IMG/VR virus record: IMGVR_UViG_3300044695_001432
Coordinates: 1-41,483 of that record
Length of the DNA stretch: 41,483 nucleotides
Strand: one strand, 5' to 3'
Origin: a virus
The notes below the pieces were generated by a model. The model ran no database searches, was not told where the DNA came from, and saw nothing but the letters and a program-made list of their open reading frames with translations. This document shows positions 12,861-37,690 of this stretch, one piece after another. The translations under genes were made by a program, and so were the position numbers. Position 1 is the first letter of the stretch, and the number at the start of each line of letters is the position of its first letter.

Positions 12861-13535
12861 CTACTTAATAGCTATGAAACCGGTAAATGCGTGGTTTTGC
12901 CAGAATGAATCGATTTGATCAAAGCCAGCACGGTTGCACATGGATATCAATTCTTCTCGTGTATTTGGCTTCATCATATGACGTAGTGTACGCTCTTTAT
13001 CCATAATGTCGTCTGTAGTGAAGGATTCGCGTTTGAAATCATAATATGTAAAGGTACGAATCTCATGAATCCGCGGCGACTTAGCCACAGTTTTTTCTGC
13101 AAAAATAAATGCCCCACCTCTATGAAGGCCATCATAGATGGAATTAATTACATCTTGACGATCACGTTGTGGCATGAATTGCAGAGTGAAAATGGACGTA
13201 ACAAGCGAACAGTTCTTGAATTTGAATGGCCTGATATCACTTCTCTCAAAGTGAAGGTTTGGATATTGTCCCATATCTTGATCGAATCCAGGATAGAAGT
13301 CAGGTTCAACCTCAACACCAACATAAGATGCATATGGAGCAAATGTATTCTGTGCAATCATAGCTTTAAGTAGCTTGCCAGTCGAGCAACCGATATCAAC
13401 GACTGTCGTATAATCTTCGACAAAATACTGTGACATTGAAAGCACATCATTCCACAAATCACCATAGTGACGAATAGATGCATTGATATGGTTGTCGAAA
13501 CCCTCATCACGGGTTGCAAATGTAAATTTTGTCAT
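12861..13535 (-). CDS. cmoA: CmoA-like carboxy-SAM synthase homologue
   Basis: A class I SAM-binding protein of 224 residues that resembles CmoA, which makes carboxy-S-adenosylmethionine from SAM and prephenate. The family matches are extensive: VVDIGCSTGK (residues 45-54), IFTLQFMPQRDRQ (115 onward), IYDGLHRGGAFIFAEK, the YYDFKR block ending at Arg169, and AGFDQIDSFWQ near the end, each with a close counterpart in E. coli CmoA as I remember it. Counting 13 residues from the FKR anchor places Arg182 opposite CmoA Arg199, reported to contact the carboxylate; one residue is deleted just after it. In bacteria the product feeds CmoB for tRNA wobble uridine. No cmoB is present here; instead the ATG overlaps the stop of a C5-cytosine methyltransferase gene (ATGA), suggesting a DNA-modification role. 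Confidence 0.82.
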   Translation of the reverse strand: MTKFTFATRDEGFDNHINASIRHYGDLWNDVLSMSQYFVEDYTTVVDIGCSTGKLLKAMIAQNTFAPYASYVGVEVEPDFYPGFDQDMGQYPNLHFERSDIRPFKFKNCSLVTSIFTLQFMPQRDRQDVINSIYDGLHRGGAFIFAEKTVAKSPRIHEIRTFTYYDFKRESFTTDDIMDKERTLRHMMKPNTREELISMCNRAGFDQIDSFWQNHAFTGFIAIK

Positions 13536-14698
13536 TGTGTAGCCTCTTTATACGGTTTCAAAATTCTATCATATACTCGATTAGCAATCTCAGCCATCAC
13601 CTTCGGTGCTACCATTCTCCCGATTCGCTCCGCTTTCTGGTCGAAGGTTCCCGTCAGTTCGTAATCCTCCGGTAGGCCCTGCAATCTCATCAGTTCTCGT
13701 ATCGTGAACTTGCGATCCTCGTTCCAATGAAACAGACCTGCGCCTGAACGTTTGGATCCATTCGCAGTCAGGGTAGGACTTGGCAAGTTTGCACACGTCC
13801 GAATCAAAGTGAAGTAATTCTCGTTCGGATTTAGCTCCTTCGGAATCTCCGGTGAGCATGGATTCAACCTCTTTGTTTGGTTCTTAGGTAAGATAGAAAG
13901 CCAGTATCTCTGGTTCTCAGAATTGTTTTGAATATAGTCTTTTAACATTTGTATCTCATCCATGTCAAGGGCTACATCGGATAGAGCATCACCCATTGAT
14001 ATATGATTCGACGTTGAATTTGGAATGACCTCAGTATTCAAATTAAACATATGAAGCCCGACCTTTTCTGCAACGTCTTGTCTGACACAGACAAAAAATG
14101 TGCGCGGTCGTTCTTGCGGTACACCGAAATCGCAAGCATGTAAGACTTCATATGTCACCAAATATCCAGGCGGAATGGTTTCAAATGCTGAGATAAATTC
14201 ATTTAGCTTGGCTGTAGCTTTACCAATAGTTAGGCCACGAACATTCTCAGCAATAATAACCTTTGGTTGAATATCAGTTGCTATACGAATGTATTCATGA
14301 AACAAATCTTCAATATTCTCGACCTTCTTACCGTCGCTGTATAGCTTTGTCTTATTCCAATTTTTGTGTCTCTTGCCTGCAGTAGAGAAAGCAGAACAAG
14401 GGGGCGACCCATCCAATATGTCTAGCTCACCTTTCTTAATACCCACAGCATCCATCAAGTCCTTGCCTGATAAGCCCTTGATGTCCCCAGGTATTACCTT
14501 GGTGTCTGGAAAATTATGCGTATACGTCTTTATCGCTTCTTCGACGAACTCATTTACGCATAGCACCTTACCACCTGCTAGACGATAACCTAAAGATGAG
14601 CCACCCCCACCAGCGAAGGTCGAAATGACATTGAACCTCTCTCGCGCGGATGATTCGCGCACATCTTTCATGAAATAGGGTTGGTAATTAGATATCAT
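13532..14698 (-). CDS. DNA cytosine-C5 methyltransferase B, motif X Arg
   Basis: A C5-cytosine DNA methyltransferase of 388 residues. Motif I is FAGGGGSS (28-35), motif II has Glu50 (VNEFVEE), motif IV is GSPPCSAFS with catalytic Cys101, motif VI is AENVRG, and motif VIII is QERPRTFF. Motif X reads RIGRMVAP: the usual GNxVxP has its Asn replaced by Arg361. That Asn faces the donor's transferable group; a basic residue there enables carboxy-SAM use in engineered enzymes. It is a close paralogue of the enzyme upstream, nearly collinear up to residue 220 and diverged in the target recognition region. Its ATG overlaps the stop of the upstream copy and its stop overlaps the CmoA-like gene. Target site unknown. 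Confidence 0.93.
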   Translation of the reverse strand: MISNYQPYFMKDVRESSARERFNVISTFAGGGGSSLGYRLAGGKVLCVNEFVEEAIKTYTHNFPDTKVIPGDIKGLSGKDLMDAVGIKKGELDILDGSPPCSAFSTAGKRHKNWNKTKLYSDGKKVENIEDLFHEYIRIATDIQPKVIIAENVRGLTIGKATAKLNEFISAFETIPPGYLVTYEVLHACDFGVPQERPRTFFVCVRQDVAEKVGLHMFNLNTEVIPNSTSNHISMGDALSDVALDMDEIQMLKDYIQNNSENQRYWLSILPKNQTKRLNPCSPEIPKELNPNENYFTLIRTCANLPSPTLTANGSKRSGAGLFHWNEDRKFTIRELMRLQGLPEDYELTGTFDQKAERIGRMVAPKVMAEIANRVYDRILKPYKEATQ

Positions 14699-15843
14699 GA
14701 TTTGTAAGGCTTTAGCACATTCTCATAGATATTAGATGCAAGAGCGCACATCATCTTTGGCGCAACCATACGCCCAATACGCTCGGCCTGCTGATCGAAT
14801 GAACCAGTAAGCTGATAATCATCAGGCAAACCCATTACTCGCTTTAATTCCATAACAGTTAATTTACGATGTTTCGCATAGTGAAGCACACCAGATACCC
14901 CGCGCTTCTGACCAGCTTGTGTTACAGTCGGGCTAGGTAGATGCGGCGCAGGTCGAATCATATTGAACAAAGATGCTTTAGGATTTACATCACGAAACTC
15001 TGGCATTGATGGCTTTGTATGTTTAGAGGGGTTGAAAGGTAACATCTCAACCCACTTCTTCTGCCAACAGTTTTGCACATAATCCTCAAGCATCTTTTCT
15101 TCTTCTGGATCATTAACCAGATTTTCAAAGGCCTGACTAATTGAAATGTGCTCAGGTGTAATAGGATTCGGAAATACAGTTTGATTGGCGTTGAACATAT
15201 GAATACCAACCTTGTCTGCAACATCATGCCGTATGCATACAAAGAATGTACGCTCACGACCTTGAGGAGTACCAAAATTTGCAGCACTCAGAACTTCATA
15301 AGTTACATGATAACCAGGCTTAATATTACTGAATGCATTGATAAACTCATTCAGCTTTTTTGTGGCCTCACCCATTGTGATGCCTTTGACATTCTCAGCA
15401 ATAATAACTTTGGGTTGAATTTCTTCAGCGATGCGAATAAATTCAAGGAATAAATCCTCGATATTCTCAACCTTCATACCATCGCTGTATGACTTCTCTT
15501 TGTTCCAGCCTTTCTCACGCTTGCCTGCTACCGAGAAAGCAGAACAAGGAGGAGAACCATCCAGAATATCAAGTTCACCAGGCTTTAGTCCAGCTGCCTT
15601 TAGTAGATCATTACCAGTTAAGGTTTTGATATCACCTGGCACGATTTTGGTATCAGGAAAGTTTGTCGAATAGGTTTTGATAGCCTCTTCGACAAACTCA
15701 TTGATAGCAATAACTTTACCACCAGCAAGGCGATAGCCTGTGCTGGAACCACCGCCGCCGGCAAATGTGCTGACTACGGTGAACAACTCGCGAGCCGAGC
15801 TGTCTTTAACATCTTGAACGGTATACGGCTGATACTTTGTCAT
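14695..15843 (-). CDS. DNA cytosine-C5 methyltransferase A, motif X Arg
   Basis: A 382-residue C5-cytosine DNA methyltransferase, first gene of the modification cassette. Motifs: I FAGGGGSS (27-34), II INEFVEE with Glu49, IV GSPPCSAFS with nucleophile Cys100, VI AENVKG (Glu150, Asn151), VIII QGRERTFF (194-201), and X RIGRMVAP with Arg358 in place of the conserved Asn. The target recognition region (about 225-340) differs from the downstream copy, for example KWVEMLPFNPSKHTKPSM. The frame is open 12 codons upstream to a TTG, but MTKYQPYTVQDVKDSSARE aligns with the start of copy B and the promoter's -10 lies 7 nt before this ATG, so the message looks leaderless. Predicted either to methylate cytosine or to transfer a carboxymethyl group from carboxy-SAM. 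Confidence 0.93.
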   Translation of the reverse strand: MTKYQPYTVQDVKDSSARELFTVVSTFAGGGGSSTGYRLAGGKVIAINEFVEEAIKTYSTNFPDTKIVPGDIKTLTGNDLLKAAGLKPGELDILDGSPPCSAFSVAGKREKGWNKEKSYSDGMKVENIEDLFLEFIRIAEEIQPKVIIAENVKGITMGEATKKLNEFINAFSNIKPGYHVTYEVLSAANFGTPQGRERTFFVCIRHDVADKVGIHMFNANQTVFPNPITPEHISISQAFENLVNDPEEEKMLEDYVQNCWQKKWVEMLPFNPSKHTKPSMPEFRDVNPKASLFNMIRPAPHLPSPTVTQAGQKRGVSGVLHYAKHRKLTVMELKRVMGLPDDYQLTGSFDQQAERIGRMVAPKMMCALASNIYENVLKPYKS

Positions 15844-15850
15844 AACAGAT

Positions 15851-15879
15851 ATAATACTCCATATTGATCTAGATGTCAA
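15851..15879 (-). promoter_or_regulatory. Sigma-70-type promoter of the methyltransferase/CmoA cassette
   Basis: Perfect TTGACA, 17-nt spacer, TATTAT as -10. The -10 ends 7 nt before the ATG at 15843. The -35 touches the end of the preceding asparagine-synthetase-like gene. It lets the A-B-CmoA cassette be expressed independently of the recombination operon upstream. Confidence 0.85.
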
Positions 15880-15882
15880 TGG

Positions 15883-16710
15883 CTAAGTTAGAAATTGATC
15901 TAAGCTAGGTCCAGTATTTTGTAACTCGGCCCAATCTCTACACATATCCATGACCCTAATGCGACCCTTAAAGTTTATTCTGCTATTATGTAGTAGGGTT
16001 TCAAACAGCACATCAATATTACTACCAAGTTGTAAGTTGATATGCTTTTTAAATTTACCAATAGCATCAAACTCTTTACGGAAAGCTTCGACCACATGAT
16101 GCTTCTGGTAAGGTTTGTTTAGTTGGTTCCAATCCATGGTATAAAAGAAATCTTTGACCTCTTGACATAGATAAGGTGTTATAAATTTCTTACCATGAAT
16201 ATCTGCTATACGTTTATGCCAATTATATCCAGCCCTAGAATCATCTGAGAAGTATTGATCACGGAATTCATCAAGCTTTTCTTTAGTCTGCGAATAATGC
16301 AATACAGCTTTCTTGCTGATGCCATAATAACCATCAGCTGCCCACCCACTTAAAACTTCTTCTTGTTTTATGTAAGGATATACATGAATGAACGGATAAC
16401 AACACTCAAAGTGTGTCTTTTTTACACACTTAATAGTATTAGCAAGATATTTAAAATCTTGCTCTAATCTACCAACAGGTACTTCTATGACATGACAATT
16501 CCAGTCCATGATATCACATACTTCAATGGCCTTGTCAGAATCATAACTGGTCTGTCCAGTTAATCGAAAGGTATAAGCATGAATCTTCTTACCTAATCTT
16601 TGCGCCGCAAAAGCCACTGATAAACTATCGACCCCACCAGAGAGGAGAATAGCGCACTCAGTATCAGAAGAGGATCTAGTAAGCTCATCACAGAGCAGCT
16701 TGTCGATCAT
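15883..16710 (-). CDS. Asparagine-synthetase-like PP-loop ATPase, no glutaminase domain
   Basis: An N-type ATP pyrophosphatase of 275 residues related to the C-terminal domain of asparagine synthetase. The PP-loop SGGVDS is at residues 24-29. GWAADGYYG stands where SGxGADElFgGY occurs in AsnB, PYLCQEVKDFF matches the RxPFLD block, and KPYQKHHVVEAFRKEF matches the conserved Lys/Arg helix. The N-terminal glutaminase domain with Cys1 is absent, so nitrogen would come from ammonia, another amine or a partner. Such enzymes adenylate a carboxylate and amidate it. Its start overlaps def by 23 nt, and it sits directly before the methyltransferase promoter. QueC is an alternative by motif but the later blocks fit AsnB better. 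The substrate is unknown. Confidence 0.72.
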   Translation of the reverse strand: MIDKLLCDELTRSSSDTECAILLSGGVDSLSVAFAAQRLGKKIHAYTFRLTGQTSYDSDKAIEVCDIMDWNCHVIEVPVGRLEQDFKYLANTIKCVKKTHFECCYPFIHVYPYIKQEEVLSGWAADGYYGISKKAVLHYSQTKEKLDEFRDQYFSDDSRAGYNWHKRIADIHGKKFITPYLCQEVKDFFYTMDWNQLNKPYQKHHVVEAFRKEFDAIGKFKKHINLQLGSNIDVLFETLLHNSRINFKGRIRVMDMCRDWAELQNTGPSLDQFLT

Positions 16711-17215
16711 TCGCTTTTCTCATCCTATCAAGTTTTAGCTTTCTGCGTTTGGCCTGATCAAGATGATATCTATTTGCCCGCTCTGTGAATAGAATGCCAT
16801 CTAGATGATCGATTTCATGTAATGCGACTCTGGCTGTGATACCCTGAAAATTATGAGTCTCAGTATTACCTTCTTGATTAGAATAACGCATTCTGATAGT
16901 AGTTGGTCTTTTAACTTTCAAGAATAGACCAGGAAAGGTGGAACATTGTTCTTCATAGACATCAAGTTCTGAACCATAATTAACAATTCGCGGATTGAAT
17001 ACCGACATGATGCTATTTGGATCATCTGGATTACCAAATGCAAATACGCGAACCATGATACCAAGTTGCGGCGCAGATAACCCCAATGTCTTTAGTTCGC
17101 ATATCTTATCACGAAGCATTTCATGCAGTTGCATGGGATCCATCTGTGGAGATGAGAAATCAAACTCCTCGCTTTTCTGCCTAAGCAGAGGGTCATTGAG
17201 TTTTAAAAGTTGCAT
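16688..17215 (-). CDS. def: Peptide deformylase
   Basis: Removes the N-formyl group from nascent proteins; a well-known accessory gene of T4-like marine phages. From the ATG at 17215 it is 175 residues. Motif 1 is GLSAPQLG (45-52), motif 2 is EEQCSTFPG with metal ligand Cys91 (canonical EGCLS), and motif 3 is HEIDH (133-137) with both His ligands and the catalytic Glu134. The C-terminal basic helix (LDQAKRRKLKLDRMRK) is longer than in most phage deformylases. AAGGA is 8 nt before this ATG; an ATG two codons earlier is too close to it. The 5' end overlaps fcl and the 3' end overlaps the PP-loop gene, so translation is coupled. Confidence 0.93.
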   Translation of the reverse strand: MQLLKLNDPLLRQKSEEFDFSSPQMDPMQLHEMLRDKICELKTLGLSAPQLGIMVRVFAFGNPDDPNSIMSVFNPRIVNYGSELDVYEEQCSTFPGLFLKVKRPTTIRMRYSNQEGNTETHNFQGITARVALHEIDHLDGILFTERANRYHLDQAKRRKLKLDRMRKANDRQAAL

Positions 17216-18116
17216 CCACATATTCCTTTGCTAACATTTCAATACCATAAGGTAGATCGATCTTAGGAGACCAGCCTACAGATTTTAGCTTGCTTATATC
17301 TAGTAGCTTCTTTGGTGTACCATCAGGCTTAGATGTATCAAATTTCAATATACCATTCCAACCGACTACCTCAGCCACAAGTGAAACCAACTCTGCTATC
17401 GACAAATCTTCACCACTGCCTATATTAACTACTGCATCATTAAGCTTTTCAGATGCAGTCACAATACCGTCAGCAGCATCGCTCGTATGCAGAAATTCCC
17501 TGCGTGGGGATCCCGTTCCCCAGACCTCAACAGTTTCGCTTTTATTATGACGAGCATCACATACTTTACGAACCAAAGCAGATAGCACATGCCCACCTTC
17601 AGCAAAATTATCACCAGGGCCATACAAATTGCACGGCATGACTGTCATATAATTGAAGCCCTTTTCTCTAGCAAAATTAACGGCTTCAAGTGTTGTAAGC
17701 TTTGCGACTGCATAACCTCTATTTGTCTGCTCAAGTGGTCCAGAACCAATCATAAGCTCAGTCATTGGCTGCGGACAATTGCGCGGATAAATGCAAGATG
17801 AACCAGCAAATACTAACTTTGGAATTTTATATTTGGTAGCAACATCGACTACATTCAATCCCATCTGAGCATTTCTGATAAGAAATGTTAATTGATTATC
17901 GCGATTATTGAGAATCCCACCAACATGACCTGCACAATGATATATTGCTTTAGGTTTTATTTCAGCAATAGCCATTGAGATATCATCTAATATTGTAAGA
18001 TCACAATCGGAGCTACCTAAAGCATATACCCGCTCACCATCACGTCGCAGACGTTCAACAACGGCGCGGCCGAGCATACCTGTGCCACCAAAGACAATAA
18101 TATTATTTGAGGTCAT
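17193..18116 (-). CDS. fcl: GDP-L-fucose synthase (epimerase/reductase)
   Basis: Converts GDP-4-keto-6-deoxymannose to GDP-L-fucose. An extended SDR of 307 residues with the NADP-binding GGTGMLGRAVVERL near the N-terminus, AGSSCIYPRNCPQPMTE with the catalytic Ser, GYAVAKLTTLEAV with the catalytic YxxxK, and NLYGPGDNF. The reading frame has a TTG three codons earlier, but AAGGAG precedes the ATG at 18116. It follows gmd with a short overlap, giving the two consecutive steps from GDP-mannose to GDP-fucose. The sugar could decorate the host envelope or virion, or be used by the glycosyltransferase-like protein at 8201-9073. The final transferase for fucose is not obvious here. Confidence 0.93.
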   Translation of the reverse strand: MTSNNIIVFGGTGMLGRAVVERLRRDGERVYALGSSDCDLTILDDISMAIAEIKPKAIYHCAGHVGGILNNRDNQLTFLIRNAQMGLNVVDVATKYKIPKLVFAGSSCIYPRNCPQPMTELMIGSGPLEQTNRGYAVAKLTTLEAVNFAREKGFNYMTVMPCNLYGPGDNFAEGGHVLSALVRKVCDARHNKSETVEVWGTGSPRREFLHTSDAADGIVTASEKLNDAVVNIGSGEDLSIAELVSLVAEVVGWNGILKFDTSKPDGTPKKLLDISKLKSVGWSPKIDLPYGIEMLAKEYVDATFKTQ

Positions 18117-19104
18117 GTTCAACCATCTCCTTAATCAAATCTTCAAAAGACGTAGTTGGTTCCCAACCAAGCACATCTTTAGCTTTGGTAGGTATACCTT
18201 GCAGAAAGTCAACCTCATTAGGTCGTCTATATTTTGGGTCTGTGATCACCAAAATATGTCCGGTCTTTGCATCCGCAGCAAATTCACCGTTTCTACTATC
18301 ATGCCATTCAAGAGTGATACCTGCATAATCAAATGCTAAATCTATCAGGTATTTTACTGACAAGCAACGGTTAGTTGCGATTACATAGTCATCTGGATCT
18401 TTTTGTTGAACCATACGCCACATGGCTTCAACATAATCTTTAGCATGACCCCAATCACGAATGGCATGAATATTACCGACCACTAAAGGTTCCGTAGAAC
18501 CTTTTGCGATACGAGCAGCAGCCTTAGTAACCTTGCGAGTTACGAATGTCTCACCTCTGCGTGGACTCTCATGATTGAATAGAATGCCTGATGAAATATG
18601 CATACCATATGATTTGCGATAGTTATCACATAGCCAATGTGCATAAAGCTTCGCAGACCCATATGGGCTACAAGGCTGAAATGGCGAATCTTCATCTTGT
18701 GGTCCAGGTGTCGAACCAAACATTTCTGACGTGCTAGCTTGATAGATATGACAATTATCTTGTATGCCTGCAGACCGAACAGCTTCAAGTATCTTTAGCA
18801 CACCTAGCCCATCAGTCATAAGAGTATATTCAGGAATCTCAAAGCTAACCTTGACATGAGACTGTGCCGCAAGATTGTATATCTCATGCGGCCTCACTTG
18901 CGAGATGACAGATGTCATTGCGCTACCATCAGTAACATCACCAAAATGTAGCTTTAATTTGTCAAAGATATGATCAATTCGTCCAGTATTGAAAGATGAG
19001 GAACGACGGATGATACCGTGAACCTCATATCCTTTCTCTAGCAGCAATTCAGCCAGATATGAACCATCTTGTCCAGTAATGCCTGTAATTAATGCGCGTC
19101 TCAT
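18103..19104 (-). CDS. gmd: GDP-mannose 4,6-dehydratase
   Basis: Converts GDP-D-mannose to GDP-4-keto-6-deoxy-D-mannose. An extended SDR of 333 residues with ITGITGQDGSYLAELLLEKG at the N-terminus (GxxGxxG dinucleotide site), GIIRRSSSFNTGRIDHIF, AAQSHVKVSFE, the STSEMFG segment carrying the catalytic Ser/Thr and Glu, SPYGSAKLYAHW with the YxxxK, and FNHESPRRGETFVTRKV, all diagnostic for GMD. The ATG overlaps the stop of gene 46 (ATGA). With fcl this sugar pathway is embedded in the recombination operon. The length is slightly below the E. coli enzyme (373). Confidence 0.95.
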   Translation of the reverse strand: MRRALITGITGQDGSYLAELLLEKGYEVHGIIRRSSSFNTGRIDHIFDKLKLHFGDVTDGSAMTSVISQVRPHEIYNLAAQSHVKVSFEIPEYTLMTDGLGVLKILEAVRSAGIQDNCHIYQASTSEMFGSTPGPQDEDSPFQPCSPYGSAKLYAHWLCDNYRKSYGMHISSGILFNHESPRRGETFVTRKVTKAAARIAKGSTEPLVVGNIHAIRDWGHAKDYVEAMWRMVQQKDPDDYVIATNRCLSVKYLIDLAFDYAGITLEWHDSRNGEFAADAKTGHILVITDPKYRRPNEVDFLQGIPTKAKDVLGWEPTTSFEDLIKEMVEHDLK

Positions 19105-24424: not shown

Positions 24425-24967
24425 CTAAATGCGTTCTAATGTATATTTTCTGTAAGAAAATGTAGCTGTAGCTTCAAGATATTCAACATCATTGGCCATT
24501 GATGTAAATCTAAGTGCTGACAAGCTAGTAGGAAATGCATCACTAAAGAAAGCATTCAATCCGGGATTTTTATGACTTGTCAATACTGTTAGCGTAGCAT
24601 CTGAGGTAAGAGTCATTGCGCTACCTATTGTATTTGGTGTCGCAAGAGGTGAAGATGCGGATAGATCACGAAGCTGCTTTAGTGTATTCGGGTGACCAAG
24701 ACCCTCAAGCCAGTTAACCATCTCAATATAATTTTTCATATCTTCATCGACACGAAATGTGATGGTCAGAGGATCATATGCAATCTTATCACCAGGCCTT
24801 ACTAATGTACCTACTGGTGTTGGTGTATTGATTGGTGTCATACTAATCGCAGGGATATCGACCGACTGGCAGAAATAATTGACCATCGGTAGACGACGAA
24901 GGGTAAACTTAAACCCTAACGGCGAAAGATAATTCAAATTGGTAGGTTGGTCTGTTATGGTGCTCAT
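24425..24967 (-). CDS. 3: gp3-like tail completion / tail-tube-fold protein
   Basis: A 180-residue virion protein beginning MSTITDQPTNLNYLSPLGFK, followed by TLRRLPMVNYFCQSVDIPAI and ending with a beta strand YLEATATFSYRKYTLERI. The pattern, and the position between gene 23 and uvsY, match the protein called gp3 (tail completion and sheath stabiliser, 176 residues in T4) in T4-like cyanophages. The fold resembles that of tail tube proteins, so a tube-cap or tube-initiator role is an alternative. A CTAAATA late element and GGGAGGA ribosome site precede it, and the gp23 terminator isolates it from the capsid gene. Confidence 0.75.
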   Translation of the reverse strand: MSTITDQPTNLNYLSPLGFKFTLRRLPMVNYFCQSVDIPAISMTPINTPTPVGTLVRPGDKIAYDPLTITFRVDEDMKNYIEMVNWLEGLGHPNTLKQLRDLSASSPLATPNTIGSAMTLTSDATLTVLTSHKNPGLNAFFSDAFPTSLSALRFTSMANDVEYLEATATFSYRKYTLERI

Positions 24968-29583: not shown

Positions 29584-30534
29584 TCATTTACCAAACATTT
29601 GTCGCCATATAGCTATCTCAGAGTTCATGAAATTTTCCGTATCAGTCAAATTATTTTGAATAATCCAAGATTCTTCTATACCTGTACCAGTAATTCTACG
29701 TCGTACATCTTGGTTATTTAATGCTTGATTTATCATATTATTAAGTTGTTCTCTTATAGGTCGCGGTGTATTTGCTCTTACAAAAATACCTTGCCAAGAA
29801 TAAAAACTATGATTTATGCCCAATTCTCTAAGAGTTGGTACATCAGGATGACTTGATAATCGTTGATCTGATGTAACTGCAATCATTCTAGCACCTCTTC
29901 CATTTATCTGAGATGCTAGGGGAACAGTTTCAAACATCATTGTTAATCTACCAGCTAGAAAATCAGTAACCGCAGGAGCTGATCCTCTATATGGTACATT
30001 AATCATTGAGCTACCTATAGATGATGTAAATAGGTGTGAGGCCATGGCTCCAGTCCCACCACCACCTGTGCTAAAATATGTGTAAAAATTAGGACGTGCT
30101 CTAACAGCAGATACTAATGAATTAAAATCTTGAATTTCAGTATTTACCGTAGGTAGTAATAAAGTTTTTGGAACTTTGAGTGGAGTAGCAATCACAGAAA
30201 ATTCTTCTCTGGGATCAAATGCCATCTCAGGATTAAAATGTCTACTTGTAGTATAACCATTTCCTATGTTTATTATGGTATGACCATCGGCTGGCTGATT
30301 CATTACAAATCCACCAGCAATAGCAATATAACCACCTGTTCTATTTTCAATATTTGTTTGTCTGATTGATGATAAACCTTCAGCTAATATTCTAGCAAAT
30401 ACATCAGATTGACCACCAGGCGCAAAAGGCACAACAAATCTAATAGGCCTATTAGGTTCTAAAGATTGGGCATTAGAAACCCCAGTAATCAAAGTTGCTG
30501 CTGTTATAACAGCAGCAAATAACAAACGAATCAT
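29584..30534 (-). CDS. Bug/TctC-family periplasmic solute-binding protein
   Basis: A 316-residue homologue of the substrate-binding component of tripartite tricarboxylate transporters. The N-terminus has a signal peptide (short basic start, hydrophobic core FAAVITAATLITG, likely cut after VSNA). The mature protein begins LEPNRPIRFVVPFAPGGQSD, the family hallmark, followed by QPADGHTIINIGNG, VPYRGSAPAVTDFLAGRLTM, and SDQRLSSHPDVPTLRELGI, all well-known Bug blocks. Such proteins bind small carboxylates in the periplasm of Gram-negative bacteria. No membrane subunits (TctA/TctB) are encoded nearby, so it would work with a host transporter or do something else. AGGAGG lies before the ATG, 21 nt after the fibre gene, so it is a late gene. 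GC is low (about 30% in one 60-base line counted), unlike the replication genes. Confidence 0.93.
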   Translation of the reverse strand: MIRLLFAAVITAATLITGVSNAQSLEPNRPIRFVVPFAPGGQSDVFARILAEGLSSIRQTNIENRTGGYIAIAGGFVMNQPADGHTIINIGNGYTTSRHFNPEMAFDPREEFSVIATPLKVPKTLLLPTVNTEIQDFNSLVSAVRARPNFYTYFSTGGGGTGAMASHLFTSSIGSSMINVPYRGSAPAVTDFLAGRLTMMFETVPLASQINGRGARMIAVTSDQRLSSHPDVPTLRELGINHSFYSWQGIFVRANTPRPIREQLNNMINQALNNQDVRRRITGTGIEESWIIQNNLTDTENFMNSEIAIWRQMFGK

Positions 30535-37132: not shown

Positions 37133-37690
37133 TTAGACCGCTAGCGTGCCAGTTGTACCTGGGTTTACTAGATCCCAGTAATCATATGCAAATTCTACCG
37201 GGAATGTTTCAATCTGTTCACCTTGATCCCAAGCCAGATCAATGGCTCCGATTTCTGTCGGAAAGATATTCACAAACCGATATGTACGCAAAGCCTCACC
37301 AGTCTTAGCATATTGGGTCACAGTCGCGGTAGTGCGATATGACGCAGATGTTGCTAGCTGTGGTGCGCGTAGATTGGATTGATGCGAATTAATCGCATTG
37401 CTCCAAATTTCCATTGCAGAGCGCACCTGAAAATCTTCATCATTCAAGATATCAACTCTCCAGTTTTGGAAACTACGAGTGCCAGCAATCTTAATACGGC
37501 GACCGTAGTAAGCTTGTTCAATTACACCAACTGTGCTTTGCGGAATCTGCGCTGCACGACATGTAAATGAAATTCTAGATCCTATGTTCGGTACACCAGA
37601 TGGAGTATCGACAATGACGCTAAAGAGCGATGGGCGGGCACCACCAAGCGGGAGGCCTGCTGATGCAAATTCTGAGACATTAAAAGCCAT
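37133..37690 (-). CDS. 19: Tail tube protein (gp19-like)
   Basis: The subunit of the inner tail tube through which DNA passes. The 185-residue protein is slightly longer than T4 gp19 (163). It begins MAFNVSEFASAGLPLGGARP and includes SFTCRAAQIPQSTVGVIEQA, YYGRRIKIAGTRSFQNWRVD, VRSAMEIWSNAINSHQSN and the C-terminal WDQGEQIETFPVEFAYDYWD, typical of T4-like tube proteins. AGGAGG lies 10 nt before the ATG. It follows the sheath gene directly and precedes a strong terminator. Confidence 0.95.
   Translation of the reverse strand: MAFNVSEFASAGLPLGGARPSLFSVIVDTPSGVPNIGSRISFTCRAAQIPQSTVGVIEQAYYGRRIKIAGTRSFQNWRVDILNDEDFQVRSAMEIWSNAINSHQSNLRAPQLATSASYRTTATVTQYAKTGEALRTYRFVNIFPTEIGAIDLAWDQGEQIETFPVEFAYDYWDLVNPGTTGTLAV

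Follow-up and report, generated by a model that had tools for sequence, protein, structure and literature searches.

The window analysed here is the whole 41,483-base linear IMG/VR record IMGVR_UViG_3300044695_001432, which, judged from its gene content, is a fragment of a T4-like phage. Its minus strand carries what the gene predictions delineate as a four-gene operon in the order cmoY-cmoX1-cmoX2-cmoA, in which two tandem homologues of DNA cytosine C5 methyltransferases, named in order of transcription, stand between a predicted ligase gene and a predicted gene for synthesis of carboxy-S-adenosylmethionine (carboxy-SAM). The features are as follows.

15883..16710, minus strand: cmoY, 275 amino acids, predicted amide ligase forming adenosine monophosphate (AMP); Asn_synthase Pfam match, E 1e-11.
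15851..15879, minus strand: promoter-like sequence TTGACA-17-TATTAT, within the 39 bases separating cmoY from cmoX1; a consensus match only.
14695..15843, minus strand: cmoX1 (A in a preliminary description of this DNA), 382 amino acids, predicted DNA cytosine C5-carboxymethyltransferase; Cys100, Arg358.
13532..14698, minus strand: cmoX2 (B in that description), 388 amino acids, predicted DNA cytosine C5-carboxymethyltransferase; Cys101, Arg361.
12861..13535, minus strand: cmoA, 224 amino acids, predicted carboxy-SAM synthase; phrog_4752.

Calculated from the coordinates, the cmoX1/cmoX2 and cmoX2/cmoA joints are 4-base ATGA overlaps each, as the preliminary description had them for its three coupled minus-strand genes. 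That description, however, overlooked the fourth gene, cmoY, directly upstream. As to its single promoter, the site upstream of cmoX1 agrees with the consensus at 11 of 12 positions, but promoter-like matches across the region equal those in shuffled sequences (32 versus 32.1), with no enrichment. The reported absence of cmoB was borne out by a search for CmoB (PF08003), which found none in the window and none in four kin contigs.

Both CmoX1 and CmoX2 match the Pfam family DNA_methylase (E about 1e-57). Alignment confirmed the residues first noted for them: a catalytic Cys in SPPC, intact ENV and QxRxR motifs, and a motif X that reads GRMVAP in both copies, with its Arg (Arg358 and Arg361) in the column occupied by Asn304 of M.HhaI and by Arg350 of SpCmoX, the enzyme of Synechococcus phage S-B43. 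The best PDB match of CmoX2 is SpCmoX (8YF3, E 6e-106, full length), and the SpCmoX contacts Phe25, Glu47, Phe48, Asp69, Cys98 and Arg350 are all identical in both copies. Each copy therefore shows the published hallmarks of a CmoX (homology to SpCmoX, SPPC and an equivalent of Arg350) and has Arg in place of the motif-X Asn by which ordinary C5 methyltransferases are recognized; both are predicted to be DNA cytosine C5-carboxymethyltransferases.

While the preliminary description took such a natural system to be undescribed, the same system was published for S-B43 by Yang et al. (Nat Commun, 7 December 2025; PMC12783734). According to the main text of that paper, S-B43 CmoA makes carboxy-SAM from S-adenosylmethionine (SAM) and prephenate, CmoX, an Arg-type C5-cytosine methyltransferase homologue, forms 5-carboxymethylcytosine at GC sites, and the asparagine-synthetase-like CmoY ligates glycine, with 5-glycylcarboxymethylcytosine present in phage DNA. 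It also reports that Arg350 in motif X of SpCmoX contacts the carboxylate in a 1.9 Å structure (PDB 8YF3), that R350N abolishes activity and that IMG/VR and other sets yield a list of 5,615 CmoX candidates (PMC12783734).

The window shares with S-B43 (MN018232) full-length homologues of all three enzymes encoded by adjacent genes (cmoA-cmoY-cmoX in S-B43), the catalytic and carboxy-SAM-binding residues and the context of a large Kyanoviridae/T4-like phage. It differs in belonging to another phage, in having two tandem CmoX in the order Y-X-X-A rather than one in the order A-Y-X, and in target-recognition domains unlike that of SpCmoX. Synechococcus phages S-CRM01 and RN05-S likewise have CmoA beside an Arg-type CmoX, 49–50% identical to CmoX2, but only one CmoX, and no cmoY was found there in a phage search. 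In M.MpeI N374K, too, a basic residue takes the place of the motif-X Asn and allows use of carboxy-SAM; that enzyme is engineered, carries Lys and is CpG-specific, whereas here the replacement is natural, is Arg and comes with its own predicted carboxy-SAM synthase. M.HhaI and other Asn-type C5 methyltransferases have the same fold, catalytic Cys and motif order, but differ in their motif-X Asn (Asn304), in using SAM as donor and in having no cmoA nearby.

To relate motif X to cmoA, we collected C5 methyltransferase loci (cited below by L numbers) from viral contigs using CmoX queries, with a manually entered M.HhaI sequence as the query supplying the Asn-type control, and added a few annotated phages; CmoA presence was scored in the available DNA of each locus, and sequences were clustered at 90% identity. 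The preliminary description had named as grounds for its own rejection that GRMVAP be equally common without cmoA. Instead, cmoA shared a stretch with the methyltransferase gene in 43 of 53 Arg-type clusters versus 0 of 70 Asn-type clusters (Fisher p = 1e-23), an association between families obtained with different queries rather than one among independent mutations. Clusters with Met in motif X had no cmoA either (0/6). Because the contigs are fragments, the cmoA of the ten Arg-type clusters that lack it in the available stretch may lie elsewhere.

Several other arrangements were seen among these loci. The available DNA of L032, L035, L106, L115, L120, L128 and L130 encodes an Arg-type CmoX but has neither cmoA nor cmoY, and in two further members of the cmoA-less group, L036 and L121, CmoX occupies the same T4-like site, between gp46/deformylase genes and a peptidase-CobS pair. 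The reverse exception comes from a Staphylococcus phage, in which cmoA and cmoY adjoin the gene of an enzyme whose motif X has Gly. In Staphylococcus phages (F1, SPbeta-like) and related contigs, CmoA lies beside a C5 methyltransferase with this Gly-type motif X (GGVINQ; L004 6461–7468, L230 5648–6646, L234–L237), and in L234 both an Arg-type and a Gly-type enzyme accompany CmoA and CmoY; the survey described in the main text of Yang et al., which filtered on Arg350, does not cover Gly-type enzymes (PMC12783734). Two Endozoicomonas genome contigs encode a CmoX homologue and CmoA (L228 5851–7717 and L229 5890–7674), with Arg in motif X in L228 and a methyltransferase split across two open frames in L229. 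Finally, L052–L065 hold a phage C5 methyltransferase family with Met in motif X (GMSVPPVMM) and no cmoA nearby.

The other two enzymes are also recognizable over their length. CmoA matches the E. coli (4GEK) and Haemophilus CmoA structures (E 4e-20), is homologous over its full length to E. coli CmoA and to SpCmoA of S-B43, and is 54% identical to the latter, in keeping with its first identification as a CmoA homologue. CmoY has a PP-loop (SGGVDS) and an asparagine-synthetase C-domain fold without the glutaminase domain; it is 49% identical to SpCmoY, the S-B43 ligase, over 97% of its length, and the nearest PDB entries to its AlphaFold model (mean predicted local distance difference test score 90) are beta-lactam synthetase and asparagine synthetase B. 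It is thus an asparagine-synthetase-like AMP-forming ligase candidate adjoining cmoX and cmoA, as the published system has it.

We consider it very likely, on this comparative evidence, that these four genes form a phage operon for DNA hypermodification, of the CmoA-CmoX-CmoY type already published, with two CmoX that are likely to have different targets. CmoA would convert SAM and prephenate to carboxy-SAM, and CmoX1 and CmoX2, acting through their catalytic Cys, would move the carboxymethyl group from it onto cytosine C5, with Arg358 or Arg361 holding the carboxylate of the cofactor. CmoY would then add an amino acid (glycine in S-B43) to 5-carboxymethylcytosine, and two CmoX copies with different short target sequences would widen the set of modified cytosines. 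For this phage, the enzyme activities, the amine used, both specificities and a protective role are all inferred. The chemistry proposed in the preliminary description, a carboxy-SAM synthase feeding Arg-type methyltransferases, is the part demonstrated in S-B43; its proposed end product, 5-carboxymethylcytosine, is here probably an intermediate, because cmoY adjoins and its product is a homologue of SpCmoY.

Several points weigh against this reading. The glycine preference of CmoY is deduced from overall similarity only, and the different specificities of the two CmoX copies from their divergence only. The target-recognition domains of both copies are only 33–38% identical to that of SpCmoX, so its GC specificity is not transferable to them. 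Lastly, Arg199 of E. coli CmoA holds the carboxylate by a salt bridge (PMC3663124), and the corresponding position is Glu181 here, although the active SpCmoA likewise has no Arg there. SpCmoA makes carboxy-SAM even so, and the Arg199 criterion therefore does not hold for the phage CmoA subfamily. Among 93 aligned phage-type CmoA rows, SpCmoA included, which were not deduplicated and come in part from the same contigs, Arg occupies the 199 position in none and Glu in 89, while 91 have Arg four residues, or one helical turn, later (the E. coli sequence used was entered by hand and matches the 4GEK chain). We infer that the carboxylate-binding arginine has moved within the helix in phage CmoA.

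It is possible, if on balance improbable, that CmoY uses an amine other than glycine, so that the final base would be a different amide; this would be a variant of the hypermodification pathway rather than a departure from it. Identity to SpCmoY is just 49%, and the main text of Yang et al. reports ligase clusters with other predicted substrates (PMC12783734).

The presence of two CmoX copies raises a separate question. CmoX1 and CmoX2 are 62–63% identical overall, with 39% identity in the target-recognition domain versus 71% outside it (p 6e-8), while orthologue pairs from other contigs are 86–95% identical in that domain for each copy. Most of the divergence between the copies thus falls in a domain that the orthologues of either copy conserve, and the two enzymes probably recognize different short DNA sequences, which is the simplest account of why both are retained. 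The Y-X-X-A order was seen again in many contigs. In a quick-method tree, the CmoX1 and CmoX2 groups of the window are sisters (support 90), placing their origin in a duplication within this lineage, whereas L038, L039, L101 and L102 carry two copies from different CmoX lineages, the second of which joins the S-B43 group. As this second set pairs two different lineages, tandem CmoX, on the tree, arose at least twice. Close kin L020 and L021 have only cmoX1 and cmoA at the same site, cmoY and cmoX2 being missing, and so cmoX and cmoA appear as the core of the cassette and the other genes as accessory.

That both copies act on the same or overlapping sequences, the second serving dose or timing, seems unlikely to us. 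Both retain the full set of catalytic and cofactor residues, one CmoX suffices in many related phages and a target-recognition domain could drift with its motif unchanged; yet the divergence is concentrated in precisely this domain, which is conserved within each copy's orthologues, and an independent tandem pair joins two different CmoX lineages. Less probable still is that one copy no longer carboxymethylates, being instead a 5-methylcytosine maker or a catalytically silent partner. Silent methyltransferase partners exist in other families, and the CmoX2 branch is longer than that of CmoX1. However, the Cys and the motif-X Arg are intact in both copies and in all tandem orthologues examined, and SpCmoX, which shares this Arg, accepted only carboxy-SAM in the work described in the main text of Yang et al. 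(PMC12783734). The classical bacterial role of CmoA, in making uridine 5-oxyacetic acid (cmo5U) in transfer RNA, would suggest wobble modification with a host CmoB beside two ordinary 5-methylcytosine enzymes, which is highly improbable given that neither window nor kin has CmoB, that cmoA overlaps a cmoX gene, that motif X has Arg, that cmoA accompanies Arg-type and is missing with Asn-type enzymes, and that the DNA pathway was directly demonstrated in S-B43.

Relative to the main text of Yang et al., what is new in this probable hypermodification operon is the pairing of CmoX enzymes with diverged target domains, tandem or paralogous CmoX having no mention there (PMC12783734). A phage CmoA that lacks Arg199 and has a conserved Arg four residues on is likewise not in that main text. 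A more specific proposal, which we regard as doubtful, is that the two CmoX targets give a two-motif pattern, possibly with different final bases if CmoY acts on one of them, in combination with the relocated CmoA arginine.

The T4-like assignment of the window draws on genes for a DNA polymerase, a sliding clamp and its loader, gp46/gp47-like SbcCD, a late sigma factor, portal, capsid, sheath and terminase. At the DNA level, 12.5 kb spanning the cassette had no match in a phage collection, a plasmid collection search returned only distant C5 methyltransferases and the cyanophage marker psbA (PF00124) was absent from the two long kin contigs searched. Dinucleotide counts in the window and kin showed a mild GC excess (1.28) and nothing decisive on the modified motif. 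Upstream of cmoY (16688–19104, minus strand) lie genes for a peptide deformylase, a GDP-fucose-synthase-like epimerase and a GDP-mannose dehydratase, an order that close kin share. At 24425–24967 and 37133–37690 (minus strand) lie genes for two tail-tube-like proteins, both belonging to the phrog_45 family, one adjoining the major capsid gene. A gene for a TctC-type (tripartite tricarboxylate transporter receptor) solute-binding protein, unusual for a phage, adjoins a large tail fibre gene (29584–30534, minus strand; Pfam E 3e-34). Such receptors are abundant in Burkholderiales, and the gene is a possible hint at a host from this order.

The operon provides independent support, from sequence alone, for cytosine carboxymethylation followed by amide hypermodification as a common strategy in T4-like phages. 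L020 and L021, which have neither cmoY nor cmoX2, offer a natural comparison of 5-carboxymethylcytosine with and without the amide step. If the paired CmoX enzymes do differ in target as their recognition domains suggest, they would supply carboxymethyltransferases with new sequence specificities, ready for use.
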